This document shows, piece after piece, positions 998 through 14,935 of a DNA stretch of 64,000 nt. The notes beneath the pieces are model-generated. The model worked only from the letters and a program-made list of their open reading frames with translations, did no database searches and was not told where the DNA came from. How positions within the stretch are numbered: the first letter of the stretch is position 1; every line of letters begins with the position of its first letter. Origin of the DNA: Streptacidiphilus sp. PB12-B1b (GTDB taxonomy: Bacteria; Actinomycetota; Actinomycetes; Streptomycetales; Streptomycetaceae); NCBI RefSeq assembly GCF_014084125.1, contig NZ_CP048405.1, positions 7,130,001 to 7,194,000 of the forward strand, in the 5' to 3' direction. Position numbers and translations under genes: made by a program.

Positions 998-1012
998 CCG
1001 TCAGCCTGACGG
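998..1012. promoter_or_regulatory. inverted TGACGG repeat upstream of the TetR gene
   Basis: CCGTCAG and CTGACGG face each other across one base. The half-sites are those of the CTGAyG-N3-CGTCAG palindromes found at 4049, 8280, 10142, 10238 and 14193, but here they point outward. A further single half-site, CTGACGG, lies at 1060-1066, touching the TetR start codon. It may be an autoregulatory site; the arrangement differs from the other five, so confidence is modest. Confidence 0.4.
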
Positions 1013-1067
1013 AGCATTCGGCACACTGCCGGATAGCGCGCGGATCTTGCCACGGTAAACTGACGGC

Positions 1068-1715
1068 ATGACAGGACAAGTTCGCACCGTCGACGGGCGT
1101 GTCGCCGGGCGACGCGGGCAGGCGACGCGGCAGAAGCTGCTCGAATGCCTTAGCGAGATGCTCAGCACATCGCCCTACCGGGACGTCAAGGTCATCGACG
1201 TAGCCCGGATGGCGGGTACCTCCCCCGCAACGTTCTACCAGTACTTCCCCGACGTCGAGGGCGCTGTCCTCGAGATCGCGGACGGGATGGCCAGGGAAGG
1301 CGCCGGTCTCAAGGACCTGGTCGCCGAGAAGTCGTGGGCCGGAAAGACCGGCTACCAGACGGCCGAGGAGCTGGTTGACGGCTTCCTCACGTTCTGGCGC
1401 GACAACGAGGCCATCCTGCGCGTGGTCACGTTGGGCTCAGCGGAAGGGGACAAGCGGTTCTTCAAGATCCGCATGAAGATCCTCAACGCGGTGACCAACT
1501 CGCTCACCGACTCCCTCAAGGCCCTCCAGGCCTCGGGGAAGGCGGACGCGTCGGTCAGCGCCCCGGCCATCGCCGGATCGCTGGTGGCCATGCTGGCCGC
1601 CGTCGCGGAGCACCAGAAGGGGTTCGACTCCTGGGGCGTCAAGGCCAAGGAGCTCAAGCCCAGCCTGGCGCTGCTGGTCTACCTCGGCATGACCGGTAAG
1701 AAGCCGCCGAAATAG
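1068..1715 (+). CDS. TetR family transcriptional regulator
   Basis: A 215-residue DNA-binding regulator. The N-terminal TetR helix-turn-helix covers about residues 20-70; the recognition helix region reads VARMAGTSPATFYQYF, followed by PDVEGAVLEIA. The C-terminal two thirds are the helical ligand-binding and dimerisation domain. TetR proteins usually repress until a small ligand binds. The gene follows cfa and lies at the edge of a lipid-metabolism region whose promoters carry a shared TGACG/CGTCA palindrome. Half-sites of that palindrome lie just before this gene, so it is the best local candidate for the common regulator. That link is inference. The ligand is unknown. Confidence 0.9.
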   Translation: MTGQVRTVDGRVAGRRGQATRQKLLECLSEMLSTSPYRDVKVIDVARMAGTSPATFYQYFPDVEGAVLEIADGMAREGAGLKDLVAEKSWAGKTGYQTAEELVDGFLTFWRDNEAILRVVTLGSAEGDKRFFKIRMKILNAVTNSLTDSLKALQASGKADASVSAPAIAGSLVAMLAAVAEHQKGFDSWGVKAKELKPSLALLVYLGMTGKKPPK

Positions 1716-2063
1716 CGGGTGACCACGGCACCGGTCCCGGCCGGTTAGCCCTGGCCCCGACCAGTCCCGGGTGTCTCCCGGGCATGCGCGGGCTCGCACC
1801 GGCCGCTCCGGCGGCCACGGGCGGCCCGCAGGACGCCCCGGGACGATCCCGGACGTCCGGATGGTGCCAGGACGCCCGGGGTGAGTGCTCGGTGAGCGCT
1901 CCTGGGCTGCGAAAACCCGGTCGCCTGTCCGACCGGGCGAGGGACCGGCTGCGCCTCGGGGGAGGTACACCGGTCCGAAACGCCGCGCCCGCACTCACAC
2001 CCGCATGCCCGCAGTACCCCTCTCGGAGTCGTCTGCGAGTCGTCTGCGACGCCGGATCCGCCC
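1716..2063. other. intergenic stretch, nothing recognised
   Basis: About 350 bases between the TetR stop and the terminator of the next gene. I see no gene with a credible start and ribosome binding site, no RNA gene and no clear operator here. Confidence 0.5.
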
Positions 2064-2100
2064 TGGGCGGCCCTCCCCTTCGCCGGGGAAGGGCCGCCCA
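2064..2100 (-). terminator. terminator of the acyl-CoA dehydrogenase/oxidoreductase operon
   Basis: A strong GC hairpin (TGGGCGGCCCTCCCC paired with GGGGAAGGGCCGCCCA, TTCGCC loop) sits directly after the stop codon of the minus-strand gene that ends at 2101. Confidence 0.65.
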
Positions 2101-2706
2101 TCATTCATTCCCCGCGACGCCCTCGGATACGCCCGCCGCGCGGGTCCGCGTCCGCTCCGTCCGCCGTTGGCGGAGCGGCTCCAGCCGGAAGATCCGCAGC
2201 TGCCGCTCCACCCGCGCCTGGTAGGCGGCGTACGGCGGCCACATCTGCAGCAGCGCCGCCCAGGCCGCCTCGCGCTCCCCGCCCTCCAGCAGCCGGGCGG
2301 TGACCGGCAGCGTCCGGCCCCGGTGCTCGACCGTGACGTCCGGGGCGGCGAGCAGGTTGCCGGTCCAGGCCGGGTGCCGGGCCTGGCCGAAGTTGCTGCC
2401 GATGACCAGGAAGCCGCCGCCCGGCTCGGGCAGGCAGGCCAGCGGGGTCACCCGGGGCTCGCCGCTGCGGCGACCGACCGTCGTCAGGAACAGCGACGGC
2501 AGCAGGTACTGGCTGATCATCACCCGGCCGCCGCTGAGCCGGTGCACCGCCCGGTCCAGCCGGGGCAGGACGCGCGGGGCGATCCGGGCGAAGGCCCGCG
2601 AGGTGGAGACCCGCTGGATCACCGCCGCCCCGCGCGAACGGGGTGAGCGGGGCGAGCGGGGTGAGCTGGACGGTCGGGGCGGCTGACCGTGGGCTTCCGG
2701 CGCCAT
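2101..2706 (-). CDS. nitroreductase family deazaflavin-dependent oxidoreductase (Ddn-like)
   Basis: A protein of 201 residues from this start. From about residue 65 it matches the F420-dependent Ddn/DUF385 split-barrel family: LFLTTVGRRSGEPRVTPL, then GGGFLVIGSNFGQARHPAW and a C-terminal MWPPYAAYQARVERQLRIF. Members use reduced coenzyme F420 or act as quinone reductases in actinobacteria. The chosen ATG lies one base after the TGA of the acyl-CoA dehydrogenase (TGACATG), which suggests translational coupling. The first 30 residues are low-complexity, so an internal start is possible. The substrate is unknown; the operon partner points to lipid or isoprenoid-type compounds. Confidence 0.82.
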   Translation of the reverse strand: MAPEAHGQPPRPSSSPRSPRSPRSRGAAVIQRVSTSRAFARIAPRVLPRLDRAVHRLSGGRVMISQYLLPSLFLTTVGRRSGEPRVTPLACLPEPGGGFLVIGSNFGQARHPAWTGNLLAAPDVTVEHRGRTLPVTARLLEGGEREAAWAALLQMWPPYAAYQARVERQLRIFRLEPLRQRRTERTRTRAAGVSEGVAGNE

Positions 2707-2707
2707 G

Positions 2708-3967
2708 TCACACCGCCGCCGCTCGGCCGCGCCCGGCGTGCGGCCCGGGCGGGAACAGCCCGGCGCGGGCCGCGGCACGGGCGCGCAGCCGGTGCGGCGC
2801 CCCGAACAGCAGCTCGTCGGCGACGGCCCGCTTGAAGTAGAGGTGGATGTCGTGCTCCCAGGTGATGGCGATCCCGCCGTGCACCTGGATCGCCTCGGCG
2901 GCGGCGGTGTGCAGGCACTCCAGCGCCTGGGCCAGCGCCAGCAGCACCGCGGTGGCCGCCGCCGACGCCGACGCACCGCCGTCGGCGCCGGCGCCCGTGG
3001 CGGCGTCGAGCGACCAGGCTGCGTAGTGGACCGCCGAGCGCGCCGACTCCACCGCGACATACACGTCCGCGAGCTTGTGCTTGATGGCCTGGAAGGAGCC
3101 GATCGGCCGGCCGAACTGCTCCCGGGTCTGCGCGTACTCCACTGCCCGGGCCAGGCAGTGCTCGGCCGCGCCCACCGCCTCGGCGGCGGTGGCCAGCGCC
3201 GCCGACAGCCCGACGCCGTCCAGGCCCGGCCCCGCGTCCAGCGCCGGATCGCCGAGCGGGACGCCGACGGTGTCGCGCAGCTCCACCCGCCCCAGCGCGC
3301 GGGTCTCGTCCAGCGAGGCGCAGCGGCTGCGGGTGAGCCCGGGGGCGTCGCCCGCGACCAGGTAGAGGACGGTCCGGCTGCGCGGGAAGCCCCCGGTGTG
3401 CGCGGCGACGACCAGCAGGTCGGCCCGGGCGCCGTCGACGACCGGCGCGGCCTCCCCGTACAGCAGCCACCCCGGCGTACGGTCCGGCGTCGCGTCGGGC
3501 GGCGTCCGGTCCTGGGAGGGCCGGGGGCGGGCCTGGATGCCGCCGGCGCGGCCGCCGCCCGCAGCCGTCCCGTCGGGCAGCGGTCTCGGCAGGACCAGCG
3601 CGGCGGTCCGCTCGCCGCTCGCCAGGGCCGGCAGCAGCCGGGCCCGCTGCTCCGGTGTGCCCAGCGCGAGGACGGCGCCCGCCGCCAGGACGCAGGAGCC
3701 GAGCAGCGGCGAGGGCAGCAGCACCCGTCCGGTCTCCTCGCAGGCCAGGGCCAGCTCGATCGGCCCGAGCCCGGCGCCGCCGTACTCCGCGGGCAGGGCC
3801 AGGCCGGGCAGTCCGGGCTGTTCCGCGAGCCGCCGCCACAGCTCCGGATCGTGCCCGGACGGGCTCGCCGCCGCCGCGCGGACCTGCTCCGGGGTGCAGC
3901 GCTTGGCCAGGGCCTCGCGCAGGGTACGGCGGACGGCCTCTTGTTCGGGGGTGGGCGCGGGGTCCAT
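2708..3967 (-). CDS. acyl-CoA dehydrogenase family protein
   Basis: A flavoprotein of 419 residues that oxidises acyl-CoA thioesters to enoyl-CoA. The N-terminal helical domain (PEQEAVRRTLREALAKR, LALPAEYGGAGLG) and the C-terminal FAD-binding part (TREQFGRPIGSFQAIKHKLAD, IQVHGGIAITWEHD) are clear. The middle carries an Ala/Pro/Arg-rich insertion near residues 150-175. The ATG at 3967 has GGAGG four bases upstream; a longer form from 4021 would extend toward the operator at 4049. It resembles the FadE subunits of steroid and branched-lipid catabolism, some of which work only as heteromers. It is divergent to the Ltp2-like gene and shares its promoter region. Confidence 0.9.
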   Translation of the reverse strand: MDPAPTPEQEAVRRTLREALAKRCTPEQVRAAAASPSGHDPELWRRLAEQPGLPGLALPAEYGGAGLGPIELALACEETGRVLLPSPLLGSCVLAAGAVLALGTPEQRARLLPALASGERTAALVLPRPLPDGTAAGGGRAGGIQARPRPSQDRTPPDATPDRTPGWLLYGEAAPVVDGARADLLVVAAHTGGFPRSRTVLYLVAGDAPGLTRSRCASLDETRALGRVELRDTVGVPLGDPALDAGPGLDGVGLSAALATAAEAVGAAEHCLARAVEYAQTREQFGRPIGSFQAIKHKLADVYVAVESARSAVHYAAWSLDAATGAGADGGASASAAATAVLLALAQALECLHTAAAEAIQVHGGIAITWEHDIHLYFKRAVADELLFGAPHRLRARAAARAGLFPPGPHAGRGRAAAV

Positions 3968-4048
3968 ACCGCCTCCAGCTCTCGTGTGCTGACGGTCCGT
4001 CATCCTAGGAGCAGCGGTCACGGGAGCACAGGGGCACGGGCCATAAAT

Positions 4049-4063
4049 CTGATGTACCGTCAG
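4049..4063. promoter_or_regulatory. operator palindrome, lipid regulon site 1
   Basis: CTGATGTACCGTCAG lies between the divergent acyl-CoA dehydrogenase and thiolase-like genes. It matches the sites at 8280, 10142, 10238 and 14193. It is probably a repressor binding site serving both directions. Confidence 0.72.
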
Positions 4064-4110
4064 CTATCCGGTTCGGCCGCAACACCGTTACCTCTCGGAG
4101 GAGTTGACCC

Positions 4111-5334
4111 GTGCCCGTGCCCTCCCTGCACAACCCGGTGCCGCCGGAGCAGCCGCGCCGCCGGGTCGCGGTCGTCGGCGTGGCCCACTCCGACTGCGGC
4201 CGGGTGGACGACGCGACCGCGTTCCAGCTGCACGCCCAGGCCGCCCGGCGGGCCCTGGCCGACTCCGGACTGCCGCGCTCGGTGATCGACGGCGTGGCCT
4301 CGGCCGGGCTCGGCCTGCTCGCCCCCGTCGAGGTCTGCGAATACCTGGGCCTGCGCCCGCGCTGGACCGACTCCACCTCGGTCGGCGGCTCGACCTGGGA
4401 GGTCATGGCCGCCCACGCGGCCGACGCGATAGCGGCCGGCCACGCCGAGGCCGTCCTGCTGGTCTACGGCTCGACGGCCCGCGCCGACCTCAAGGCCCGG
4501 CGCCGCACCGCCGGGCTCGCACTGGGCGCACACGGGCCCCAGCAGTTCGAGGCCCCGTACGGGCACACGCTCATCTCCAAGTACGCGATGGCGGCCCGCC
4601 GCCACATGCACGCGTACGGGACGACACTGGAGCAGCTCGCGGGCGTCGCCGTGCAGGCCCGGGCCAACGCCGCCGCCAACCCGGAGGCCATGTACCGCGC
4701 CCCGCTCACCGTGGACGAGGTGCTCGCCGGGCCGCCCGTCGCCTCCCCCTTCACCAAGCTGCACTGCTGCATCCGCTCGGACGGCGGCTGCGCCGTCCTG
4801 CTCGCGGCCGAGGACTACGTCCCGGACACCCGGCACGCCCCGGTCTGGATCCTGGGGGCCGGCGAGCACCTCAGCCACAGCCTGATGTCGCAGTGGGAGG
4901 ACTTCACCGTCTCCCCCGCCGCCGTCTCCGGCGCCCTCGCCTACCGGCGCGCGGGCGTCGGCCCGGCCGACATCGAGCTGGCGCAGCTGTACGACGCCTT
5001 CAGCTACATGCCGCTGGTCGCCCTGGAGGACCTGGGCTTCTGCGCCAAGGGCGAGGGCGGCCCCTTCGTCGACGCCGAGCACGGCCGGCTGCTGCGGGAG
5101 GGCGCGCTGCCGGTGAACACCGACGGCGGGGGCCTGTCCGCCTGCCACCCGGGCATGCGCGGCCTGTTCCTGATCACCGAGGCCGTCCGCCAGCTCCGCG
5201 GCGACTACGCGTCCACCGCCCCGGCCCGGCAAGTCCCGCGCCGCGACCGCACCCCCGGCCCGCCCGGCCTCGCCCTGGTCAGCGGTGTCGGCGGCTGGTT
5301 CTGCTCCTCCGCCACCCTCGTCCTCGGCCGCTGA
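4111..5334 (+). CDS. Ltp2-like thiolase superfamily protein (SCP2-type lipid-transfer protein/aldolase)
   Basis: A protein of 407 residues with the thiolase fold of the non-condensing Ltp2 group. The GTG start follows GGAGGAG by about six bases. The usual nucleophilic cysteine position reads SVGGSTWE instead of a Cys motif. The C-terminal half has ELAQLYDAFSYMPL and NTDGGGLSACHPGMRGL, both typical of Ltp2-type enzymes. Characterised Ltp2 proteins are retro-aldolases of steroid side-chain breakdown and need a DUF35 partner. A DUF35 protein is encoded at 7801-8259 and carries the same operator. Assignment to the subfamily is good; the steroid link is inference. Confidence 0.85.
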   Translation: MPVPSLHNPVPPEQPRRRVAVVGVAHSDCGRVDDATAFQLHAQAARRALADSGLPRSVIDGVASAGLGLLAPVEVCEYLGLRPRWTDSTSVGGSTWEVMAAHAADAIAAGHAEAVLLVYGSTARADLKARRRTAGLALGAHGPQQFEAPYGHTLISKYAMAARRHMHAYGTTLEQLAGVAVQARANAAANPEAMYRAPLTVDEVLAGPPVASPFTKLHCCIRSDGGCAVLLAAEDYVPDTRHAPVWILGAGEHLSHSLMSQWEDFTVSPAAVSGALAYRRAGVGPADIELAQLYDAFSYMPLVALEDLGFCAKGEGGPFVDAEHGRLLREGALPVNTDGGGLSACHPGMRGLFLITEAVRQLRGDYASTAPARQVPRRDRTPGPPGLALVSGVGGWFCSSATLVLGR

Positions 5335-5381
5335 ACGCGACCGGGGCAGGAGGCCAGGGGCAGGGGGCCAGGAGCCGGGGG

Positions 5382-6326
5382 CTAGGGGCAGCGGACGACC
5401 TGGCCGGCGTAGGCCAGGCCGCCGCCGAAGCCGAGCAGGAGGACGGGGGCGCCGGAGGCCAGCTCGCCGCGTTCGACCAGCTTGGAGAGGGCCAGCGGGA
5501 TGGACGCCGCCGAGGTGTTGCCCGAGTCGACGACGTCGCGGGCGATGACAGCGTTCGGCGCGCCGATCTTGGCCGCGATGGCGTCGATGATCCGCAGATT
5601 GGCCTGGTGCGGGACGAAACCGGCCAGCTCGGCCGGGGTGATCCCGGCCTTCTCGCAGGCCAGCCGGGCCAGCGGGGCGATCTGCGTGGTGGCCCAGCGG
5701 AACACCGCCTGCCCCTGCTGGGTGATGGTCGGATCCCAGCCGTCGATGCGCACGGCGTCGCCCTTGGACGGGTCGGAGCCCCAGACCACCGGCCCGATGC
5801 CCGGCTGCTCGGCGCCGCCGACCGCCTCGACCACGGCCGCGCCCGCGCCGTCGCCGAAGATCACACAGGTGCTGCGGTCGGTCCAGTCCAGGACGTCGGA
5901 CATCCGCTCCGCGCCGATCACCAGCGCCCGGGTGGCCGCGCCCGCGCGGATCGCGTGGTCGGCGGTGGCCAGCGCGTAGGAGAAGCCCGAGCAGACCGTA
6001 TTGATGTCGTACGCCGCCGGCGCGGCGATCCCGAGCCGGGCCGCGACCTGCGCGGCGGTGTTCGGGCTGCGGTCGATCGCGGTGCAGGTGGCCACGGCGA
6101 CCAGGTCGATCGTGGACGCGTCCAGGCCGCTCGCGGCCAGCGCCTTCTCAGCGGCGAGGAACGCCAGGTCGGAGACGGTCTCGGATTCGGCGATGTGCCG
6201 CGTGCGGATGCCCACCCGGCTGCGGATCCACTCGTCGTCGGTGTCGACCAGCTGCGCCAGGTCGGCATTGGTGAGGACCTTGGGCGGCTGGTAGTGCCCG
6301 AGCGCGACGATACGAGAACCGGTCAT
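5382..6326 (-). CDS. fabH: beta-ketoacyl-ACP synthase III family protein
   Basis: A 314-residue KAS III homologue, the class that condenses an acyl-CoA with malonyl-ACP to start fatty acid or polyketide chains. The Cys-His-Asn triad is intact: Cys112 in NTVCSGFSYA, His in GFVPHQANLRIIDA and Asn in DSGNTSAASIPLAL. The C-terminus has the usual LLLGFGGGLAYAGQVV. It is not next to fabD, acpP or fabF, so it is probably a paralogue of the housekeeping enzyme, either a second starter-selecting synthase or a specialised condensing enzyme. It lies convergent to the Ltp2-like gene with a 47-base gap. Confidence 0.9.
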   Translation of the reverse strand: MTGSRIVALGHYQPPKVLTNADLAQLVDTDDEWIRSRVGIRTRHIAESETVSDLAFLAAEKALAASGLDASTIDLVAVATCTAIDRSPNTAAQVAARLGIAAPAAYDINTVCSGFSYALATADHAIRAGAATRALVIGAERMSDVLDWTDRSTCVIFGDGAGAAVVEAVGGAEQPGIGPVVWGSDPSKGDAVRIDGWDPTITQQGQAVFRWATTQIAPLARLACEKAGITPAELAGFVPHQANLRIIDAIAAKIGAPNAVIARDVVDSGNTSAASIPLALSKLVERGELASGAPVLLLGFGGGLAYAGQVVRCP

Positions 6327-6535
6327 GCCCCCACTCAAGCCGGTTACCGGCCGGTCCATAGGCATGACCAGGGACAGTTTCCGACGGGCGATGCTGTAGG
6401 GGCCTGACAACCGCCAACGGGCGGCTGGGGCCTGACCGCTTCCCCTCAGCCAACTCTCACCTCGGACGCCCGTTCGGGCATCGTGCGGCCATCGGAGCCC
6501 GCCCGCAGCCCGATCCGCCGACCGCGTCCGGAGGC

Positions 6536-7564
6536 TCAGGCCGCGAGCGCGGCGGCGTCGCCCATCACTATGACCGGGTGCTCGGCCGGGTCGAGTTCCT
6601 TGAGCAGCGCCACCATGTCCGCCTGCGGAATGCTGATGCAGCCGTGCGTGGGGCCGCCGTGGTCGACGTGCACCCAGATCCCGCCGCCCTTGGACGCGCC
6701 CATGGGCCGCGCCGCCGACAGCGGGGAGGTGCCCGGCACGTGGTTGTAGTTGATGGCGACGACGTAGTTGAAGGCGTCGGCGAGCGACTCGCCCTCGAAA
6801 CCGGTGCTGAGGTCCTTGAACTCCGAGGACTGGAGGTACGGCAGCTTGGTCCCCGGATTGGCGTAGAGGCCGCCGGCGTCGGTGAGGGTGTAGACGCCGA
6901 TCGGGCTGTGCAGGTCGCCCTCGTGGTGGTCGGTGGTCCAGCCGTCCAGGGCATTGTGCCCGGCCCAGACTGCGCCCGGCAGCCACCGCCCGGCGGCGGT
7001 GCGGGTGTACAGCACGACCGTGACGGTGTTGGTGGTCGCCGATCCGCCCCGGGCCAGCAGCACCTGCCCGGCGCCGGCCGGGATCTTCGCCCGGAACGAC
7101 GCGCCCAGCCCCGGCAACTGCGCCAGGCCCGGAGCGGGCTTGGGCGCGGCGGGCCTGCTGGGCGCGGACGCGGGCCGGGACGCGGCAGCCGGCTTGGCGC
7201 CGACCGGCGGGATGCCGTCCGCGCTGGTCCGACCGGCGGAGGTGGGGCCGGGCAGCAGCCCGGCCACGGCGAGCACCGACAGGGCGGCGATCGAGCCGAC
7301 GCCGAGGACGCCGTTGCGCACCCGCCGTTTGCGCCGCGACTGCGCCCGGGAGGCGGCCCGGGCCTGCAGTCGGCTGGTGGGGAATCCCGCAGAGCCGACG
7401 CCCCCGGACGGTCCGGCCGCGGCGGTCCCGTCCGCACCGGCGTCGTGGGCGTCGAAGCCGCCGTACCCGCCGTCGCCGCGCAGGCCGCGTGCGTCGCCGT
7501 CGCCGCCCGGGCGTCGGCGACGACCGGAGCCGCGGGGAGTGCTGGAAGGCGGGTGACTGGGCAT
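6536..7564 (-). CDS. membrane-anchored L,D-transpeptidase (YkuD) family protein
   Basis: A protein of 342 residues. The N-terminus is a charged, glycine-rich cytoplasmic stretch ending in RRKRRVRNG, followed by one membrane segment (about residues 86-106) and a Pro/Ala linker. The C-terminal YkuD domain ends with HVDHGGPTHGCISIPQ; His307 and Cys309 are the catalytic pair. Such enzymes make 3-3 cross-links in peptidoglycan or attach proteins to it. The catalytic motif sits close to the C-terminus, as in the short YkuD proteins of actinobacteria. Its role in the lipid region around it is not evident. Confidence 0.85.
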   Translation of the reverse strand: MPSHPPSSTPRGSGRRRRPGGDGDARGLRGDGGYGGFDAHDAGADGTAAAGPSGGVGSAGFPTSRLQARAASRAQSRRKRRVRNGVLGVGSIAALSVLAVAGLLPGPTSAGRTSADGIPPVGAKPAAASRPASAPSRPAAPKPAPGLAQLPGLGASFRAKIPAGAGQVLLARGGSATTNTVTVVLYTRTAAGRWLPGAVWAGHNALDGWTTDHHEGDLHSPIGVYTLTDAGGLYANPGTKLPYLQSSEFKDLSTGFEGESLADAFNYVVAINYNHVPGTSPLSAARPMGASKGGGIWVHVDHGGPTHGCISIPQADMVALLKELDPAEHPVIVMGDAAALAA

Positions 7565-7800
7565 GTGCAGGGTCCTCGGGGGTGTGGGTGCGCGTGAATG
7601 GCCGGATCGTCACAACGGACGAGACGGATGCCCTTGGCGCCTCCCGGTCAACCGGCCGCACCCCTCTGCGCGACCGTCACTCGTCTCACGCTACCCCCAC
7701 GAACTGCCACCGCCCAGGAAGGGAAGGTTTCCTTTCTCGGCGTCCGGGGCAGCCGGTCGGTGGGTGTACGTCCCAGCGCGGCAGTGCCGCTGAGGCATCA

Positions 7801-8259
7801 TCAGCGGTCAGACGGACGGAACACGGCCACGGCCGCCATGTGCGTGATCTGAGGGTCCGCTGTTTCTGCTGTGGTAAAGGTCACAAACAAGGGCATCCCG
7901 ATCCGCAGCTCCGCGACCGGGCAGTCGACGATCTCCGTCATCATCCTCGGGCCCTCCTCCAGGTCCACCACCGCGGCCACATAGGGCAGCCGGTCGCGGA
8001 ACGGCGGCAGGTCATTGGCGTGCACCTCCGACCAGGTGTAGAGCGTCGCCCGCCCGGACGCCTCCTCCCAGGCCACGTCCTCGCTCCAGCAGTACGGGCA
8101 GAACTCCCGCGGATAGTGGTGCGCCCGACCGCACCCCCCGCACCGCCGCACCAGCAACCGCCCGCGCGCGGCCGCCTCCCAGTAGACCCGGGTGAATCCG
8201 TCCGGCTCGGGTTGGCCCGGCGCGGCAACAGCGGCCGGAACAAAGGCTGTCATGCGCAT
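7801..8259 (-). CDS. DUF35 Zn-ribbon/OB-fold protein
   Basis: A small acyl-CoA-binding protein of 152 residues (150 if the second ATG is used). A four-cysteine zinc ribbon, CGGCGRAHHYPREFCPYC, lies near residues 40-57 and is followed by an OB-fold (YTWSEVHANDLPPF, YVAAVVDLEEGPRMMTEIV, GMPLFVTF). DUF35 proteins are obligatory partners of Ltp2-type aldolases and of some thiolases. Its likely partner is the Ltp2-like protein at 4111. The operator at 8280-8294 lies about 20 bases upstream of the start. Confidence 0.9.
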   Translation of the reverse strand: MRMTAFVPAAVAAPGQPEPDGFTRVYWEAAARGRLLVRRCGGCGRAHHYPREFCPYCWSEDVAWEEASGRATLYTWSEVHANDLPPFRDRLPYVAAVVDLEEGPRMMTEIVDCPVAELRIGMPLFVTFTTAETADPQITHMAAVAVFRPSDR

Positions 8260-8279
8260 TCTCCACTCTGCTCAGTTTT

Positions 8280-8294
8280 CTGACTGCCCGTCAG
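8280..8294. promoter_or_regulatory. operator palindrome, lipid regulon site 2
   Basis: CTGACTGCCCGTCAG, extended by flanking T and A to TCTGA...TCAGA, lies between the divergent DUF35 gene and the serine hydrolase gene. Confidence 0.7.
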
Positions 8295-8417
8295 AATGCG
8301 CCCCCAGCCGCTCCCCGGCAACCCCCACTCCGCGCCGCCACGCCGCTTCCGGTCGCGGGGGTTCGGGGGTGGAACGAGAATGGCGTGGGGGCAGCAACGC
8401 AGTGGAGGAGGCAGGCG

Positions 8418-9599
8418 ATGGCCGGGCTGGGTGACCTTCTGGGGGCGCGTGTCGGCGTCGGCGCGGGCGCGGTGCCGGGGGCAGTGGGGCTGGTGGCGCG
8501 GGGCGGACGGGTCGAGGTGGCGGCCGTGGGCTCCGTGGACGTCCAGGGCAGTGCGCCGATGGCGCGCGAGTCGATCGCCCGGATCGCGTCGATCACCAAG
8601 CCGGTCACCGCCGCGGCGGCGATGGTCCTGGTCGACGAGGGGCGCATGGCGCTGGACGATCCGGTCCGGCGCTGGCTGCCGGAGCTGGCCTCGCCGGTGG
8701 TGGTGCGCACCCCCGGCAGCGAACTGGACGACGTGGTCCCGGCAGTGCGGCCGATCACCGTGCTCGACCTGCTGACCTTCCGCGCCGGGTACGGCTTTCC
8801 CTCGGACTTCTCGCTGCCCGCCGTCGCACCGCTGTTCAGTGTGCTGCTGCAGGGACCGCCGCAGCCGCAGGCGGTGCCGGAGCCGGACGCCTGGATGGCG
8901 GCGCTGGCCGGGATCCCGCTGCTGCACCAGCCGGGCGAGGCGTGGCTCTACAACACCTGCGCGGACATCCTGGGCGTGCTGATCGCCAGGGTGGCCGGGC
9001 AGCCGCTGGAGGAGTTCCTGGCCGAGCGGCTGTTCGACCCGCTCGGCATGGTGGACACCGGCTTCGCGGTCCCCGCAGCCCGGTTGGACCGCTTCACCGG
9101 CTACTACCGCGAGGATCCGGCGGGCGGCCTGGCCCTGCTGGACCCGCCGGACGGGCAGTGGGCCGCACCGCCCGCGTTCCCCTCCGCCGCAGGCGGGCTG
9201 GTCTCGACGGTGGACGACTGGTACGCGTTCGGCCGGATGCTGCTCGCCGGGGGCGTGGTGGACGGGCGGGCCGCCGGGGCCGCCCACGGCCGCCGACTGC
9301 TCTCGGCGGAGGCGGTTCGGCAGATGACCACCGACCAGTTGACGAGCGTCCAGCGGGAGCCGACCGGGCTGTTCCTGGAGGGCCAGAGCTGGGGCTTCGG
9401 CGGCTCGGTCGACGTCGAGCCGGTGAACCCGTGGAACGTGGCCGGTCGCTACGGCTGGGTCGGGGGCACCGGGACGACGGCCCACATCACACCGGCCACG
9501 GGCACCGTCTCCGTCCTGTTCACCCAGGTGCAGCTGGGCGGCCCGACCCCGCCCGCGCTGATGCGGGACTTCTGGCGCTACGCGGCGGCCGGTGCCTGA
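8418..9599 (+). CDS. serine hydrolase, beta-lactamase class C/esterase family
   Basis: A protein of 393 residues with the beta-lactamase fold of class C-like esterases. The SxxK motif is SITK in ARIASITKPVTAAAAM, the Tyr-Asn motif is in WLYNTCADILGVLI, and the late GGTGTTAHI takes the place of the KTG/HxG box. The ATG at 8418 follows GGAGGAGG by nine bases; an upstream GTG at 8385 is less likely. There is no signal peptide, so the enzyme is probably cytoplasmic and acts on esters rather than cell-wall peptides. It is divergent from the DUF35 gene across the shared operator, which suggests lipid ester hydrolysis. Confidence 0.87.
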   Translation: MAGLGDLLGARVGVGAGAVPGAVGLVARGGRVEVAAVGSVDVQGSAPMARESIARIASITKPVTAAAAMVLVDEGRMALDDPVRRWLPELASPVVVRTPGSELDDVVPAVRPITVLDLLTFRAGYGFPSDFSLPAVAPLFSVLLQGPPQPQAVPEPDAWMAALAGIPLLHQPGEAWLYNTCADILGVLIARVAGQPLEEFLAERLFDPLGMVDTGFAVPAARLDRFTGYYREDPAGGLALLDPPDGQWAAPPAFPSAAGGLVSTVDDWYAFGRMLLAGGVVDGRAAGAAHGRRLLSAEAVRQMTTDQLTSVQREPTGLFLEGQSWGFGGSVDVEPVNPWNVAGRYGWVGGTGTTAHITPATGTVSVLFTQVQLGGPTPPALMRDFWRYAAAGA

Positions 9600-9620
9600 G
9601 CCGCCACCGGCCCCCGGACG

Positions 9621-10088
9621 CTAGTACCAGGCGCCCGAGAAGAAGAGGGAGTCCAGCGACCAGGTCTGCCAGCTCATGGCGAGCAGCGCGACCAGGGAGA
9701 TCAGCGCCATCATCAGGTTCTGCCCCTGCTCGGCCCAGTCGTGGATCATCAGCACGAAGTACAGCAGGTTCAGCAGCAGTCCGGCGGCCAGGGCGACTGC
9801 GCTGAGCAGGCCGACGGTGAGGCCGAGGCCGAGGGCCAGCTCGGCGGACACCACCACGTACGCCATGGCCCGGGGCCGGGGGGCGACGATCCGGTCGAAG
9901 GAGCCGCGCACGGCGGACCAGCGGTGCTTGGCGGCGACGCCCTTGGCCCAGTCGATGCCGGTGCCGCGCTGCAGCCAGCCGCGCTTGTCCTTGTGCCGCC
10001 AACTCTCCAGCCACCATAGGCCGAGGCCGATGCGCAGCACCGCGAGCCAGTGGGCGGCGCTCAGTCCGTAGCTGTGGACGACCTGCAT
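9621..10088 (-). CDS. DoxX family membrane protein
   Basis: A protein of 155 residues with four predicted membrane segments: near the N-terminus (WLAVLRIGLGLWWLESW), then AYVVVSAELALGLGLTVGLL, VALAAGLLLNLLYFVLM and MMALISLVALLAM. The WRHKDK and FDRIVAPRPRAMAYV stretches fit the DoxX/TQO small-subunit family, whose members have roles in thiosulfate oxidation and in membrane redox stress. The start at 10088 follows a purine-rich stretch; a longer form would run into the operator at 10142. It converges on the serine hydrolase gene. The function here is unknown. Confidence 0.8.
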   Translation of the reverse strand: MQVVHSYGLSAAHWLAVLRIGLGLWWLESWRHKDKRGWLQRGTGIDWAKGVAAKHRWSAVRGSFDRIVAPRPRAMAYVVVSAELALGLGLTVGLLSAVALAAGLLLNLLYFVLMIHDWAEQGQNLMMALISLVALLAMSWQTWSLDSLFFSGAWY

Positions 10089-10141
10089 CTGCCCGCCTCG
10101 CCTCCGGCCGCACGGCCCGATGTGCGCCACCATCACCATTC

Positions 10142-10156
10142 TTGACGCATCGTCAG
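10142..10156. promoter_or_regulatory. operator palindrome, lipid regulon site 3 (DoxX side)
   Basis: TTGACGCATCGTCAG lies about 55 bases upstream of the DoxX start. It is one of two sites in the region shared with the acyl-CoA synthetase gene. Confidence 0.65.
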
Positions 10157-10237
10157 TTGACCGCAACGGGGATCGCCCGCGCAAGGGGTCGGGACGGTTC
10201 GTCCGCCCTCTTCCACCACAAGCTTCCGGCAAGTAAT

Positions 10238-10252
10238 CTGATGGTACGTCAG
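10238..10252. promoter_or_regulatory. operator palindrome, lipid regulon site 4 (acyl-CoA synthetase side)
   Basis: CTGATGGTACGTCAG, inside the wider palindrome TCTGA-N7-TCAGA, ends about 25 bases before the acyl-CoA synthetase start. A bound protein would block initiation of that gene. Confidence 0.75.
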
Positions 10253-10277
10253 ATAACGTGGGAGTGGAGGCTGCGCC

Positions 10278-12431
10278 ATGCTGGACGCGGAGGATGGCAT
10301 CGATGTCAGCGGACGGCCGCTCCACCCCCGTCCGGTCGATCTTGAGTCCTTCTTCCGCCCCGCCGCTGTCGCGGTCATCGGCGCGTCCGACGCCCCCGGC
10401 CGGCCCAACACCGGCATCACCCGGCAGTTGCGGGCCTGGGCAGAGCGGGTCGGCGCGCGCATGTTCCCGGTCAACCCCGGCCGGTCCGAGGTCGACGGGC
10501 TGACCTGCTACCCCGATCTGGCGTCGGTGCCGGCTCCCGGCGGGGAGCCGATCGACCTGGCGGTGATCCTGCTCGGCGATCCGGCCTCGGTGGTCCCGCA
10601 GTTGATCGAGGCCAAGGTGCGCTTCGCCGTGGCCTTCGCCTCGGGCTTCGCCGAGACCGGCAGCGCGGGCGCGGCCGCGCAGGAGCAGTTGGCGCAGCTG
10701 ATCGCGGACGCCCCGACCGGCCTGCGGTTGCTCGGCCCCAACACCAACCTCAACGCGTTCGAACGGTTCCGCGACGACCTCACCGGCCCGGCGATCGCGC
10801 TGATCACCCAGAGCGGCCACCAGGGCCGTCCGGTGTTCGCGCTCCAGGAGCTCGGCATCCGGCTCAGCCACTGGGCGCCCACCGGCAACGAGGCCGACCT
10901 GGAGGTCTCCGACTTCGTCCGCTGGTTCGCCGACCAGCCCGAGGTCGGCGCCATCGCCGCGTACATCGAGGGGTTGAAGGACGGCCGTGCCTTCCTGCTG
11001 GCCGCCGACCACGCCGCGCGCCGGGGCGTGCCGGTCGTCGCCGTCAAGGTCGGCCGGACCAGCGAGGGCGCGCGCATGGCCGCCTCGCACACAGGCAAAC
11101 TCACCGGCGCGGACGACGTGGTGGACGCCGCGTTCCGCCAGTTCGGTGTGATCCGCGTCGACGGACTGGACGAACTCCAGGACACCGCAGCCCTGTTGGC
11201 CCGGGCCAAGCCGCCGACCGCCGACGGCGTCGCGGTCTACTCCATCTCCGGCGGCACCGGCGCGCACCTCGCCGACCTGGCGGCCGCACGCGGCCTGACC
11301 CTGCCCCGGCTGGGCCAGGCCAAGCAGGACGAACTGCACCAGTGGATACCCGGCTACCTGAGTGTGGCCAACCCGATCGACAACGGCGGTCACCCGGTGG
11401 GCGATTGGCGCGGCCGGAAGATCCTGGACGCGATCCTGGCCGACCCGTCCGTGGGCGTGCTGATCTGTCCCGTCACCGGCCCCTTCCCGCCCATGAGCGA
11501 CAGGCTCGCACAGGATCTGGTCGAGGTCGCGGAGACCACCGACAAACTGGTCTGCGTGGTGTGGGGTTCGCCGGTGGGCACCGAGGCCGCGTACCGGGAG
11601 ACCCTGCTCGGCTCCTCCCGGGTCGCCGTCTTCCGCACCTTCGGCAACTGCGTCCGGGCCGTCGCCGCCTACCTGGAGCACCACCGCTTCACCGCCGGCT
11701 ACCGCAGCCCGTTCGACACCGCGCCGCGCACGCCCTGCGCCGGCAAGGCCAAGGCGCAGCGGGTGCTGCACGCCGGGCAGCAGCTCAGCGAGGTCGCGGC
11801 CAAGCAACTCCTGCGCGCCTACGGCATTCGTGTGCCCCGCGAACAGCTGGTGGCGAGCGCGGCCGGGGCGGTGCGGGCGGCCGGCGTGGTGGGCTACCCG
11901 GTGGTGCTGAAGGGCTCCGCTCCCGAGGTCGCCCACAAGACCGAACTCGGCCTGGTGAAAGTCGGATTGACCTCGGCCAGTCAGGTCAGGGACGCCTTCA
12001 GGGAGCTCACCGACAACGCCCGGGCGGCCGGGATCGGGCGGCTGGAGGGCGTGCTGGTGTGCCAGATGGTCGAGGCCGGGGTGGAGATGGCGCTCGGCAT
12101 CAGCCAGGACCCCACCTTCGGGCCCACGGTCACGGTCGGGCTCGGCGGGGTCTTCGTGGAGGTGCTGCGGGACACCGCGGTCCGCGTCCCGCCGTTCGCC
12201 TGCGCGGACGTCCGGACGATGCTGGCCGAGCTGCGCGGCAGGCCGCTGCTGGACGGGGTGCGCGGCGGGCCGCCGATGGACGTCGACGCGCTGGTGGAGG
12301 TGGTGATGCGGGTCCAGCGGATGGCCCTGGAACTGGGCGACGACCTCGCCGAGCTGGACATCAACCCGCTGATGGTGCTCGAACGCGGCAAGGGCGTGGT
12401 CGCGCTGGACGCGCTGGCGGTATGCCGGTGA
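10278..12431 (+). CDS. ADP-forming acyl-CoA synthetase family protein, fused alpha and beta halves
   Basis: A protein of 717 residues. The N-terminal CoA-binding Rossmann domain (residues 15-150; SFFRPAAVAVIGASDAPGRP) is followed by succinyl-CoA-ligase-like domains. ASHTGKLTGADDVVDAAFRQFGVIRV contains the conserved His-Thr-Gly and lies near residue 275. The C-terminal third is an ATP-grasp domain (GYPVVLKGSAPEVAHKTELGLV, GVLVCQMVEAGVEMALGISQDP, ELDINPLMV). Such enzymes interconvert acyl-CoA, ADP and phosphate with free acid, CoA and ATP. GGAGTGGAGG precedes the ATG. It heads an operon with the enoyl-CoA hydratase, whose start overlaps this stop. Confidence 0.9.
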   Translation: MLDAEDGIDVSGRPLHPRPVDLESFFRPAAVAVIGASDAPGRPNTGITRQLRAWAERVGARMFPVNPGRSEVDGLTCYPDLASVPAPGGEPIDLAVILLGDPASVVPQLIEAKVRFAVAFASGFAETGSAGAAAQEQLAQLIADAPTGLRLLGPNTNLNAFERFRDDLTGPAIALITQSGHQGRPVFALQELGIRLSHWAPTGNEADLEVSDFVRWFADQPEVGAIAAYIEGLKDGRAFLLAADHAARRGVPVVAVKVGRTSEGARMAASHTGKLTGADDVVDAAFRQFGVIRVDGLDELQDTAALLARAKPPTADGVAVYSISGGTGAHLADLAAARGLTLPRLGQAKQDELHQWIPGYLSVANPIDNGGHPVGDWRGRKILDAILADPSVGVLICPVTGPFPPMSDRLAQDLVEVAETTDKLVCVVWGSPVGTEAAYRETLLGSSRVAVFRTFGNCVRAVAAYLEHHRFTAGYRSPFDTAPRTPCAGKAKAQRVLHAGQQLSEVAAKQLLRAYGIRVPREQLVASAAGAVRAAGVVGYPVVLKGSAPEVAHKTELGLVKVGLTSASQVRDAFRELTDNARAAGIGRLEGVLVCQMVEAGVEMALGISQDPTFGPTVTVGLGGVFVEVLRDTAVRVPPFACADVRTMLAELRGRPLLDGVRGGPPMDVDALVEVVMRVQRMALELGDDLAELDINPLMVLERGKGVVALDALAVCR

Positions 12432-13306
12432 ACAGCCCGGCCGCTGCGGCAGCGGGCGACGCGGCGGCGGGCGGTGCACCAACGGCCGGTGCAGCCGATG
12501 CCGACGCGGCGGGCCCGCCGGTGCTGCGCCGGATGGACGACGGCGTCAGCTGGATCACCCTCAACCGGCCCCGGACGCTGAACGCCGTCACCGCCGAGAT
12601 GCGCGAACAGCTGATCGCGCTGCTGGAGCAGGCCTCCGCCGACCCCGCCGTACGAGCCGTGGTGCTCACCGGCGCAGGCCGAGGCTTCTGCTCCGGCGCC
12701 GACCTCCGCAACCCCGCCCCGGGCGCGGCGGCGGATGGGCGGGTGGCGGGGGATGTGGCGCGGGTGTTGCGGCGGGGGGTGCAGCGGATGGTCGGGGCGG
12801 TGCTGGACTGCGAGAAGCCGGTGCTGGCGGCGGTCAACGGCACGGCGGCGGGCGTGGGCGTACCGCTGGCCCTGGCCTGCGACCTGGTGCTGATGGCGGA
12901 CACGGCGACGCTGGTGGCCGCGTTCGTACGCCGGGGGCTGGTGCCGGACGGCGGCGCGGCGTACCTGCTGCCGCGCCTGGTCGGGCCGCAGCGGGCGAAG
13001 GAGCTGCTGCTGTTCGGCGATCCGCTCCCGGCTGCCGAGGCGGAGCGGCTGGGGCTAGCCAACCGGGTGGTCCCGGCGGCCGAGCTGGAGAAGACCGCCC
13101 AGTCCTGGGCCGCGCGGCTGGCGTCCGGGCCGACCAGGTCGATGGCGTTGACGAAGCAGCTGGTGAACGCCGCCCTGGAGTCCGACCGGGCGGGCGCCTT
13201 CGCCGCCGAGGCGAACGCCCAGGAGATCAACCTGACCAGCGCGGACGCCCAGGAGGGGGTGCGCGCGTTCGTCGAGCGCCGCACCCCGCGCTTCACCGGC
13301 CGCTGA
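12422..13306 (+). CDS. enoyl-CoA hydratase/isomerase family protein
   Basis: A crotonase-fold protein of 294 residues. After an Ala-rich leader of about 30 residues comes the family pattern WITLNRPRTLNAV, then GAGRGFCSGADL (oxyanion-hole glycine), and later AAVNGTAAGVGVPLALACDL. The usual Glu positions read FVRRGLVPDGGAAYLLPRLVG, with Asp in the second catalytic site as in isomerase-like members. The start overlaps the synthetase stop: ATG 12422 or GTG 12428 (GTGA overlap), so translation is coupled. The likely role is hydration or isomerisation of enoyl-CoA in the same beta-oxidation-like route. Confidence 0.9.
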   Translation: MPVNSPAAAAAGDAAAGGAPTAGAADADAAGPPVLRRMDDGVSWITLNRPRTLNAVTAEMREQLIALLEQASADPAVRAVVLTGAGRGFCSGADLRNPAPGAAADGRVAGDVARVLRRGVQRMVGAVLDCEKPVLAAVNGTAAGVGVPLALACDLVLMADTATLVAAFVRRGLVPDGGAAYLLPRLVGPQRAKELLLFGDPLPAAEAERLGLANRVVPAAELEKTAQSWAARLASGPTRSMALTKQLVNAALESDRAGAFAAEANAQEINLTSADAQEGVRAFVERRTPRFTGR

Positions 13307-13327
13307 GCAACGCCCCGCCGACGGCGG

Positions 13328-14110
13328 TCAGCTCTCCAGCAGCTCCAGGCCGCCCTGGTAGCCGCCCGCCTGCTCCACCACCAGCTCGGCCGGGCGGCGG
13401 GCGAAGGCGATGCCGTCGGCGAGGCGCAGCACCTCGGCGCCGTCCGGCCGGTGCTCGATGTCCAGCACGGTCGTCTGCCAGCCGTGGCCGAGCGCGGTCG
13501 GCGCGTCCACCCGCAGCAGCAGCTGCGGCGGCAGGCCGGTCTCCGGCTCCCAGCTGCCCTCGACGGCCTCGCCGCCGCCCCGGTGCAGGGTGAACAGGCC
13601 CTCGGGCTCCAGGCTGAGCACGCCCGCCGGGCCCTCCCAGACGCCTTCGAACGGGGTGGTGTCGGCGACCGGCACCAGCTCCGGCGTGCGGGAGCGCAGC
13701 GTCCAGGCCCCGGCCGCCATCGGCAGCGCGGCCTGGGCGAGCAGGCCGTTGGTGCCGTAGACGATGGCGGTGACGCCCTCCATGCCGCCGTGGAAGGTGA
13801 ACCAGTCGTCCGTGAGCGCGGCGGCCACCAGCAGCACCGCGCCGACGGCTATGGCGAACCGGCCGTGCAGCAGTCGGCGGCTCACCAGCCGGGCGAGTGC
13901 CAGCAGCAGCAGGATGACCAGGGTCTCGCCGACGAGCTGCGCCAGCTGCCGCCGGAGGAGGCCGCTGTCGAAGACGCCGGTGATGGTGATGCTGTTCCCG
14001 GGCATGCTCACCACCTGCCACACCTCGAACAGGGAGACGGCGTTCATCACCAGCGCCGCGGCCCCGACCGCTCCGGCAGCCCGCGTCCAGCGCCTGGCCT
14101 GCGTTGCCAT
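13328..14110 (-). CDS. membrane protein of unknown function
   Basis: A 260-residue protein I do not recognise. The N-terminal half has about four membrane segments (AAGAVGAAALVMNAVSLFEVW, LVILLLLALARLV, AIAVGAVLLVAAAL, LLAQAALPMAAGAW). The second half is a soluble beta-rich domain with repeated glycine turns (FEGVWEGPAGVLSLEPEGLFTLHRGG, VEGSWEPETGLPPQLLL). AGGAGG stands five bases before the ATG at 14110, which fixes the start. It is divergent to the flavin reductase gene with an operator between them, and it converges on the enoyl-CoA hydratase. Confidence 0.72.
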   Translation of the reverse strand: MATQARRWTRAAGAVGAAALVMNAVSLFEVWQVVSMPGNSITITGVFDSGLLRRQLAQLVGETLVILLLLALARLVSRRLLHGRFAIAVGAVLLVAAALTDDWFTFHGGMEGVTAIVYGTNGLLAQAALPMAAGAWTLRSRTPELVPVADTTPFEGVWEGPAGVLSLEPEGLFTLHRGGGEAVEGSWEPETGLPPQLLLRVDAPTALGHGWQTTVLDIEHRPDGAEVLRLADGIAFARRPAELVVEQAGGYQGGLELLES

Positions 14111-14192
14111 GGGGTCCTCCTGCCGATCGGTTCGCACACCCTACGCAACAGGTGTTCGGGCGCGTCAAGGGACAATCCCACCCACTTCCCAA

Positions 14193-14207
14193 CTGACGCA
14201 CCGTCAG
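14193..14207. promoter_or_regulatory. operator palindrome, lipid regulon site 5
   Basis: CTGACGCACCGTCAG lies between the divergent membrane protein gene and the flavin reductase gene. It fits the consensus of sites 1 to 4. Confidence 0.7.
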
Positions 14208-14263: not shown

Positions 14264-14935
14264 ATGGGCCACGAGGGAATGGCGGTGGCAGCCGTCCGCT
14301 ATCTGCGGACGGTCGGCCCGCCGGAGCCGTACCGAAACGGGAGTTACTCCCCCGAAGCGGACGAACCGCCGCACCGCCCGGCGCTGCGCGCGGTCCGGCC
14401 GGACGAGCGGCGGCCGGACACGAAGGCGTCGGAGGCCGCCGCTGCCGACACCCGCCGACTGCGCGCCGTGCTGGGGCACTTCTGCACCGGCGTGACCGTG
14501 ATCAGCGCCCTGGACGACGACGGCGCGCCGGTCGGCTTCGCCTGCCAGTCGTTCTCCTCGCTCTCGCTGGAGCCGCCGCTGGTCAGCTTCAACGTCGCCC
14601 GGACGTCGTCCTCCTGGCCCCGGATCGCCCGCGCCGGGGCGTTCTGCGCCAGCGTCCTGGCCGCCGACCAGGACGCTCTCTGCCGCACCTTCGCGGTCTC
14701 CGCCGCCACCGGCGCGGACAAGTTCGCCGGGCTGGACTGGACGCCCGCGCCCGCCACCGGCGCGCCGCGCCTGGCCGGGGCGCTGGCCTGGATCGACTGC
14801 ACCATCCACGCCGTGCACACCGGCGGCGACCACCTGATCGTGCTGGGCCGCGTGGGCGCGCTCGACGCCGGACGCGACGTCACCGGCCCGCTGCTGTTCT
14901 ACCGCGGCGGCTTCACCACCCTGGCCGCCCCCTGA
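14264..14935 (+). CDS. flavin reductase family protein
   Basis: A protein of 223 residues from this start. After a Pro/Arg-rich leader of about 60 residues comes the FMN-binding split barrel: LRAVLGHFCTGVTVISALD, VGFACQSFSSLSLEPPLVSFNVARTS, FCASVLAADQ, and DHLIVLGRVGALD. Such proteins supply reduced flavin to two-component monooxygenases, for example HsaB in steroid ring degradation. Starts at 14213 and 14279 are also in frame; 14264 has GAGG at good spacing and leaves the operator at 14193 outside the gene. No oxygenase partner is encoded nearby. Confidence 0.83.
   Translation: MGHEGMAVAAVRYLRTVGPPEPYRNGSYSPEADEPPHRPALRAVRPDERRPDTKASEAAAADTRRLRAVLGHFCTGVTVISALDDDGAPVGFACQSFSSLSLEPPLVSFNVARTSSSWPRIARAGAFCASVLAADQDALCRTFAVSAATGADKFAGLDWTPAPATGAPRLAGALAWIDCTIHAVHTGGDHLIVLGRVGALDAGRDVTGPLLFYRGGFTTLAAP

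Follow-up and report, generated by a model that had tools for sequence, protein, structure and literature searches.

The locus studied here raises the question whether one palindrome, standing before several probable lipid-catabolism genes of Streptacidiphilus sp. PB12-B1b, is the operator of the TetR-family protein encoded beside them, and which substrate those genes would serve. The window is the whole 64,000-nucleotide stretch of contig NZ_CP048405.1 that was analysed. We observed enrichment of the palindrome, its position at promoters, its conservation, its co-occurrence with the TetR protein, its presence at the tetR gene and the families of its target genes. From these we infer binding, repression, the ligand and the substrate. 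The palindrome is in all likelihood the operator of the TetR protein encoded at 1068-1715, which would repress a dispersed regulon of sterol-type lipid genes and be released by an intermediate of the pathway.

Palindrome and TetR protein across genomes

An earlier note on this DNA had described five near-identical sites of the form CTGAyG-N3-CGTCAG in promoters. We located all five, and each lies upstream of genes (5 of 5). Those at 4049, 10238 and 14193 are exact, while those at 8280 and 10142 carry one mismatch each, so that 'near-identical' was slightly too strong for two of the five. A sixth site, CTGACGGTCCGTCAT at 3989-4003, had been overlooked, as had an exact match at 49753, which runs over a stop codon and is unlikely to be an operator. 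The half-sites reported before tetR are indeed present, as a back-to-back pair and as an imperfect palindrome across the ATG (Table 1). The pair also occurs in three Streptacidiphilus loci (L061-L063) and not in the remaining tetR loci compared. L061 and L063 each keep the 4049 site and the pair in the 10142/10238 promoter as exact matches. The site at 8280 is poorly conserved: in L061 the DUF35 gene follows immediately on the DoxX-like gene and lacks a separate site, the best match having three mismatches. With up to two mismatches allowed, the window holds 33 matches against 20.15 ± 5.28 expected, and one of 100 shuffles reached 33. This tolerant count is barely beyond chance, and the case must therefore rest on the whole genome.

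The whole-genome scan that the earlier note had suggested found the motif far above random frequency: the core CTGAYGNNNCRTCAG has 53 copies in the 7.67-Mb genome against two for the reversed pattern. Reversal makes for a lenient control, since the reversed pattern runs through rare codons and stop triplets, and permutations of the half-site letters served as a second control. By our own gene caller, on which all these positions rest, 21 of the 53 cores lie at promoters (5′ of genes) and 17 over stop codons, with 14 inside genes and one elsewhere; with 32 of 53 not at promoters, it is ruled out that every genomic copy is an operator. Comparison of the sites extended the consensus to about ATCTGAYGKWMCRTCAGAT. 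Using ATCTGAYGNNNCRTCAGAT with up to three mismatches, we counted 234 genomic sites against 19 for the reversed pattern, and nine of the ten places with no or one mismatch to this 19-mer stand at promoters. Each of 14 genomes of the genus has 14-47 copies of the flanked pattern and 0-1 of its reverse. By their position the flanked sites are probably operators, and those bare cores that lie at gene ends may form hairpins. Among the stop-codon and intragenic cores of the own genome (L017-L055), several of the stop-codon ones lie between convergent genes with both stops inside the stem, possibly as hairpin terminators. The 14 intragenic cores exceed the reversed control.

We examined 80 named loci containing this TetR, 1.35 Mb in total; TetR matches of 92-93% point to Streptacidiphilus. 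They hold 138 core sites and no reversed one; 134 of these sites are at promoters, one is at a stop codon, three are elsewhere and none is intragenic. CTGAYG ranked first among 360 permutations of the half-site letters (138 matches; median 0, mean 1.0). Most of the 138 sites are orthologous copies, and they show conservation rather than 138 independent events. Every one of the 70 Ltp2-like orthologues has an upstream site (exact core in 68), as do all 30 DoxX-like orthologues, each with an exact core. The divergent acyl-CoA dehydrogenase gene is a target in 64 of the 80 loci, the FadD3-like and lipid-transfer thiolase genes in 45, the ADP-forming-type synthetase in 30 and DUF35 in 14; 26 of the 331 target genes have no label. 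The median distance from site to called start codon is 39 bp (quartiles 12 and 70.5), which fits repression better than activation. At tetR itself, CTGACGnCATGACAGGACA and TAnnnT at −12 to −7 are kept in 80 of 80 loci, a conservation that we count as supportive only, because the stretch overlaps codons.

The co-occurrence of motif and regulator was measured in 394 genomes drawn from the class, where a TetR homologue was a match of E 1e-30 or better, a site was the 19-mer with at most one mismatch, and the criterion was two or more sites per genome. The homologue is present in 64 genomes: all 40 sampled from the family of the window and 24 outside it. Outside the family, 20 of the 24 genomes that have the TetR show two or more sites, and so do 3 of the 330 that lack it. 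Family f13 was left out of the main figure; without its five TetR genomes the comparison is 15 of 19 against 3 of 330. The reversed 19-mer was found in one of the 394 genomes. The association also holds within families: in f18, 8 of 9 genomes with the TetR have two or more sites and 1 of 26 without, and in f14, 7 of 7 and 1 of 5, the exception being a genome that is 68% complete. In the family of the window, 31 of 40 genomes have two or more sites.

The more distant tetR genes outside f13 (about 42-58% identity) also carry a site of their own in 17 of 19 cases, counting up to three mismatches between −300 and +60 of the aligned tetR start. It lies near or inside the first codons in f14 and in genome G024, and 225-279 bp upstream of the aligned start in f18, where the true start is uncertain. 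Five weak homologues (about 30-35% identity) have no such 5′ site, and their genomes have no sites. The motif-TetR co-occurrence, these own sites of tetR in other families and the 70 of 70 Ltp2-like sites together strengthen the proposal of the earlier note that one regulon stands under the TetR at 1068, with binding predicted.

A TetR_N match of 24.4 bits (cut-off 24) and the C-terminal domain PF19352 place the protein in the TetR family. Its predicted structure is all-helical, with a mean predicted local distance difference test score (pLDDT) of 79.0, and the best structural matches are TetR proteins, the nearest being EthR (template modelling score 0.68-0.75; 18-19% identity over the aligned part). 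Acyl-CoA-responsive FadR proteins are among the first 50 structure matches. The predicted structure confirms the TetR fold only; the nearness to EthR and the FadR matches make an acyl-CoA ligand plausible and no more. The protein scores 14 bits against the KstR family model, whose cut-off is 280, which rules out that it is KstR. Among the papers listed in searches of the open full-text literature, which covers few subscription journals, we found none on the palindrome or on this TetR.

Target genes and the question of the substrate

The regulon reaches far beyond the window. We took as targets the first genes at promoter sites with up to two mismatches, or with an exact core and up to three (core copies with four were dropped). 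This gave 103 proteins: 40 from the genome of the window (G000), 22 from G314, 19 from G122, 17 from G026 and 5 from G337. The loci outside G000 were selected by site. Those of G314, taken for a Streptomyces, were chosen for its cluster and its better matches, and cover 19 of its 46 sites with up to two mismatches; 13 of 15 sites were covered in G122 and 6 of 15 in G337. Sites in the examined loci lie at promoters in 18 of 19 cases in G314, 13 of 13 in G122, 12 of 14 in G026, 4 of 6 in G337 and 31 of 69 in G000. The control set was 107 G000 genes away from sites (110 drawn, three very long genes dropped).

Pfam families among the 103 targets are Bac_luciferase (11), AMP-binding (8), acyl-CoA dehydrogenase (7), short-chain dehydrogenase/reductase (SDR; 7), Amidohydro_2 (6), Thiolase_C_1 (5), Thiolase, Aldedh and OB_ChsH2_C (4 each), and cholesterol-oxidase substrate-binding, P450 and flavin reductase (2 each). 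Among the control genes SDR occurs twice; the other target families are not among the 25 listed for the controls, so that each occurs there at most twice. At least 13 sites with up to two mismatches fall within 75 kb around the tetR gene of G314.

Cholesterol oxidase is a target in the genome of the window (3js8, 1.5e-181), with tandem sites 53 and 68 bp upstream, and in G337, from another family, the cholesterol oxidase gene has a perfect site upstream. CYP125 (E 8e-154) and FadA5 (676 bits, cut-off 515) form a divergent target pair, whose site departs from the pattern by two mismatches in G000 and by one in G314; both genes were confirmed in G314, so that the pair is among the targets in two genera. 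A FadD3-family synthetase, an Rv3520c-type oxidoreductase and two kinds of lipid-transfer thiolase also scored above their family cut-offs. The set thus has what a side-chain regulon is expected to hold (CYP125, FadA5, Ltp-type thiolases, FadE/FadD genes) together with oxidation of the 3-beta-hydroxysterol by cholesterol oxidase, and the 'lipid catabolism' of the earlier note narrows to a sterol-type gene set of cholesterol oxidase, CYP125, FadA5, the FadD3-family synthetase and lipid-transfer thiolases. KshA (PF19298) was found in G026 and G337. IpdE2 (NF050027), used as a marker of C/D-ring degradation, was above cut-off in none of four genomes and in none of 14 controls, and is uninformative. 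A Streptomyces CYP125 hydroxylates cholesterol in vitro, as stated in the accessible part of one report (PMC9728343). On balance we lean towards a sterol or a close analogue as the substrate.

In the window (Table 1), the solved structures nearest to the Ltp2-like protein are 4u4e, 9myr and 6ok1. We take 6ok1, and the relatives 4x28 and 6wy8 of the acyl-CoA dehydrogenase, to be sterol side-chain enzymes. Between the Ltp2-like and DUF35 genes (5382-7321) lie a ketoacyl-synthase-III-like gene and a gene of the L,D-transpeptidase family (YkuD); no site with up to one mismatch was found at the starts of these two genes.

Table 1. Predicted operator sites and genes of the proposed regulon region, in window coordinates
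Feature	Position	Strand	Basis and remarks
Back-to-back half-sites CGTCAG-C-CTGACG	999..1011		upstream of tetR
Imperfect operator (predicted) CTGACGGCATGACAG	1060..1074		spans tetR start codon
TetR-family regulator, TetR_C_38 domain; proposed repressor	1068..1715	+	PF19352 E 1.2e-68, TetR_N 2.6e-05
F420H2-dependent quinone reductase family protein	2101..2622	-	PF04075 E 1.3e-28; behind acyl-CoA dehydrogenase gene
Acyl-CoA dehydrogenase	2708..3967	-	Pfam; best solved relatives 4x28_D, 6wy8_A
Second site of the 4049 divergent promoter, CTGACGGTCCGTCAT	3989..4003		one mismatch; counterpart in L061 and L063
Operator (predicted) CTGATGTACCGTCAG	4049..4063		exact pattern match; divergent promoter of Ltp2-like / acyl-CoA dehydrogenase genes
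Ltp2-like thiolase-fold aldolase	4111..5334	+	PF22691; 4u4e E 1.2e-90; 6ok1 lipid-transfer protein E 6.5e-40
DUF35 protein (zf-ChsH2, OB_ChsH2_C), likely Ltp2 partner	7801..8259	-	Pfam
Degenerate operator (predicted) CTGACTGCCCGTCAG	8280..8294		one mismatch; not conserved in L061
Serine hydrolase, beta-lactamase family	8418..9599	+	PF00144 E 9.7e-58
Small membrane protein, labelled DoxX-like in the earlier note	9621..10088	-	no Pfam match
Operator (predicted) TTGACGCATCGTCAG	10142..10156		one mismatch; exact partner site in L061 and L063
Operator (predicted) CTGATGGTACGTCAG	10238..10252		exact; perfect 19-mer
ADP-forming-type acyl-CoA synthetase	10278..12431	+	PF13549, PF13607, PF13380
Enoyl-CoA hydratase family protein	12521..13306	+	NCBIfam best matches under cut-offs; same transcript direction as synthetase
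Membrane protein, unknown family	13328..14110	-	gene call; divergent from flavin reductase; among the 103 targets
Operator (predicted) CTGACGCACCGTCAG	14193..14207		exact pattern match
Flavin reductase, HsaB-like	14264..14935	+	PF01613; HsaB model 204.6 bits, below cut-off 230

Proposed mechanism and competing readings

We propose that a TetR dimer would sit on the palindrome within or beside core promoters and would repress the dispersed regulon, including its own, probably leaderless, gene. A pathway intermediate, most likely an acyl-CoA thioester whose side chain is sterol-derived or similarly branched, would release it. The regulon would then carry out the 3-beta-hydroxyl and side-chain chemistry of sterol-like lipids, with cholesterol oxidase, CYP125, FadD-type synthetases, acyl-CoA dehydrogenases, hydratases and the Ltp2-like aldolase with its DUF35 partner as putative members, and with FadA5, lipid-transfer-type thiolases, SDRs, luciferase-like oxidoreductases, amidohydrolases and the flavin reductase as further ones.

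Several observations weigh against this proposal. The 17 stop-overlapping and 14 intragenic exact copies of the own genome are unlike the placement in tetR loci, and the intragenic ones are unexplained. The site at tetR is imperfect in the family of the window (10 of 12 core positions). Because only few lineages are involved, the co-occurrence p-values (4e-20 for the comparison of 15 of 19 with 3 of 330) overstate independence. Two genomes, G044 (one genomic site) and G035 (none), have the TetR without a site at the 5′ region of its gene, and nine of the 40 family genomes keep the TetR yet have 0-1 sites. On the side of the substrate, KshA (PF19298) was not found in G000, G314 or G122, many targets fall outside the textbook sterol pathway, and the targets of G337 are mixed and give weaker support. 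A survey, in its accessible part, reports 55 of 57 Streptomyces genomes without steroid pathways and steroid catabolism genes in only 2 of the 57 (PMC4810484). Finally, family f13 has the TetR, yet promoters account for only 5 of the 45 sites examined there.

Eight of the nine low-site family genomes (L301-L309) retain the site at the start codon, and the ninth carries an extra base there; none of ten other window proteins was found in the 3.4-5.6 kb around their tetR genes. In f13, the flanked palindrome is frequent in four genomes (G025, G066, G082, G098), with 12-60 copies each and no reversed one. The remaining sites in the loci examined (L173, L177, L181, L185, L206-L225, L238-L245, L320-L331) are 18 intragenic, 11 over stops, 7 between convergent genes and 4 elsewhere, and the f13 tetR genes have half-sites at their 5′ region. 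Any structural or nucleoid function of the f13 palindromes would be no more than a guess. With 5 of 45 sites at promoters, f13 was dropped as support for the regulon.

The strongest competitor accepts both regulator and operator and replaces the sterol by a terpenoid, a hopanoid fragment, a bile-acid-like compound, a methyl-branched chain or another polycyclic or branched lipid. We consider this quite possible. The KshA result in the three genomes and the Streptomyces survey favour it, as do the frequency of luciferase-like enzymes, amidohydrolases and aldehyde dehydrogenases among the targets, a CasI-like synthetase under its cut-off (613.7 of 900), and Ltp2-like homologues of family f4 (see below), which stand in clusters of other content without the present TetR or a core site. 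A sterol is argued for by cholesterol oxidase in two families, by CYP125 with FadA5 in two genera, and by the FadD3-family synthetase over its cut-off. The notion that Streptomyces and relatives possess a conserved sterol side-chain pathway, with its own TetR and a new operator code, can be put forward tentatively. Without KshA in the genomes examined, such a pathway would shorten sterols to short-chain steroids, or take a different ring route, in place of standard mineralisation.

It is unlikely that the motif is bound by some other regulator, with the neighbouring TetR only a bystander. The genome encodes many other TetR proteins, and the nine low-site genomes would fit such a reading, but the motif sets track the present TetR across and within families, sites stand at the 5′ region of tetR in 17 of 19 distant genomes, and the five weak homologues come without both. 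Less probable still is that most of the palindromes act as RNA hairpins or terminators, or belong to some other repeated element: the stop-overlapping (17 of 53) and intragenic (14) copies of the own genome and the similar placement in f13 speak for it, against which stand 134 of 138 promoter positions with none intragenic in the tetR loci, the nine of ten near-perfect 19-mers at promoters and the shared function of the targets. Control by KstR or KstR2 we regard as the least probable of all; the CYP125/fadA5 promoters of G000 and G314 hold KstR-like boxes, but four other regulon promoters have no box with up to one mismatch, and the TetR falls far below the KstR cut-off (14 bits against 280).

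The reading of the palindrome as the operator of the present TetR ties the TetR of 40 of 40 sampled family genomes to an operator code and a large catabolic gene set, and this link opens the question of the substrate to direct testing. Should the substrate prove to be a sterol, the belief that steroids are left alone by most Streptomyces would be revised, and the regulator might serve as a new steroid or acyl-CoA sensor and offer a handle on side-chain cleavage.

Comparison with known regulators

The regulon resembles that of KstR in mycobacteria and rhodococci in its TetR repressor, its dispersed palindromes and its targets of the CYP125, FadA5, Ltp and FadE/FadD types. It differs in the TetR subfamily and the operator, and KshA was not found in three genomes with the present regulon. 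With the KstR box, which we take to be TnnAACnnGTTnnA, no match with up to one mismatch was found in the window promoters 3967-4111 and 10088-10278 or in the cholesterol-oxidase and FadD3 promoters. KstR control of the window genes was rejected on this ground and on the 14-bit score. By the same consensus, the CYP125/fadA5 divergent promoters (L251:2985-3157 and L296:3758-4098) have two one-mismatch KstR-like boxes each, and dual control by such boxes beside the CTGACG site is possible there.

With KstR2 and its C/D-ring cluster the regulon shares TetR control of the catabolism of acyl-CoA ring fragments and a FadD3-family synthetase. Elsewhere in the own genome (4707954-4719186, L319) we observed a separate TetR, taken for KstR2-like with weak best NCBIfam matches, and a perfect copy of AACAAGCGCTTGGT, presumably the KstR2 box, before CoA-transferase-like, SDR, hydratase and two acyl-CoA dehydrogenase genes. 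This is possibly a C/D-ring cluster, although KshA was not found. With a KstR2-like TetR elsewhere in the genome, the present TetR would be a further one.

SCO3201, a lipid-related TetR of Streptomyces, was set aside since its site, in the portion of the report available, is a different one, TGGCAGATTCTGCCA (PMC7324645). SRTF1 of Nocardioides (Pimelobacter) simplex is likewise a TetR that responds to steroids and has a palindrome in the divergent promoter of its own gene; it differs in having a 22-bp palindrome at ketosteroid-dehydrogenase genes and few sites, a distinction drawn from the descriptions in the accessible parts of PMC7062782 and PMC7807495. EthR and the acyl-CoA-responsive FadR proteins are the closest solved folds, the comparison covering the fold.

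Six f4 genomes (L339-L344), taken for mycobacteria, encode Ltp2-like homologues (56-66% by blastp) beside amidohydrolase, synthetase, SDR and hydratase genes; in four of the six a DUF35 gene was called next to the homologue. No TetR of the present type and no core site was found in these six loci, a sample that does not include the KstR3/HBC operon of Mycolicibacterium neoaurum. As far as the accessible text of PMC10398937 goes, that operon has four genes, no motif is stated, deletion altered seven transcripts, of which four belong to the operon or lie next to it, and KstR3 negatively controls an Ltp2-type aldolase (atf1), a DUF35 protein (chsH4) and an acyl-CoA dehydrogenase (chsE6). By gene content, these KstR3 targets are strikingly like the genes beside the present TetR.

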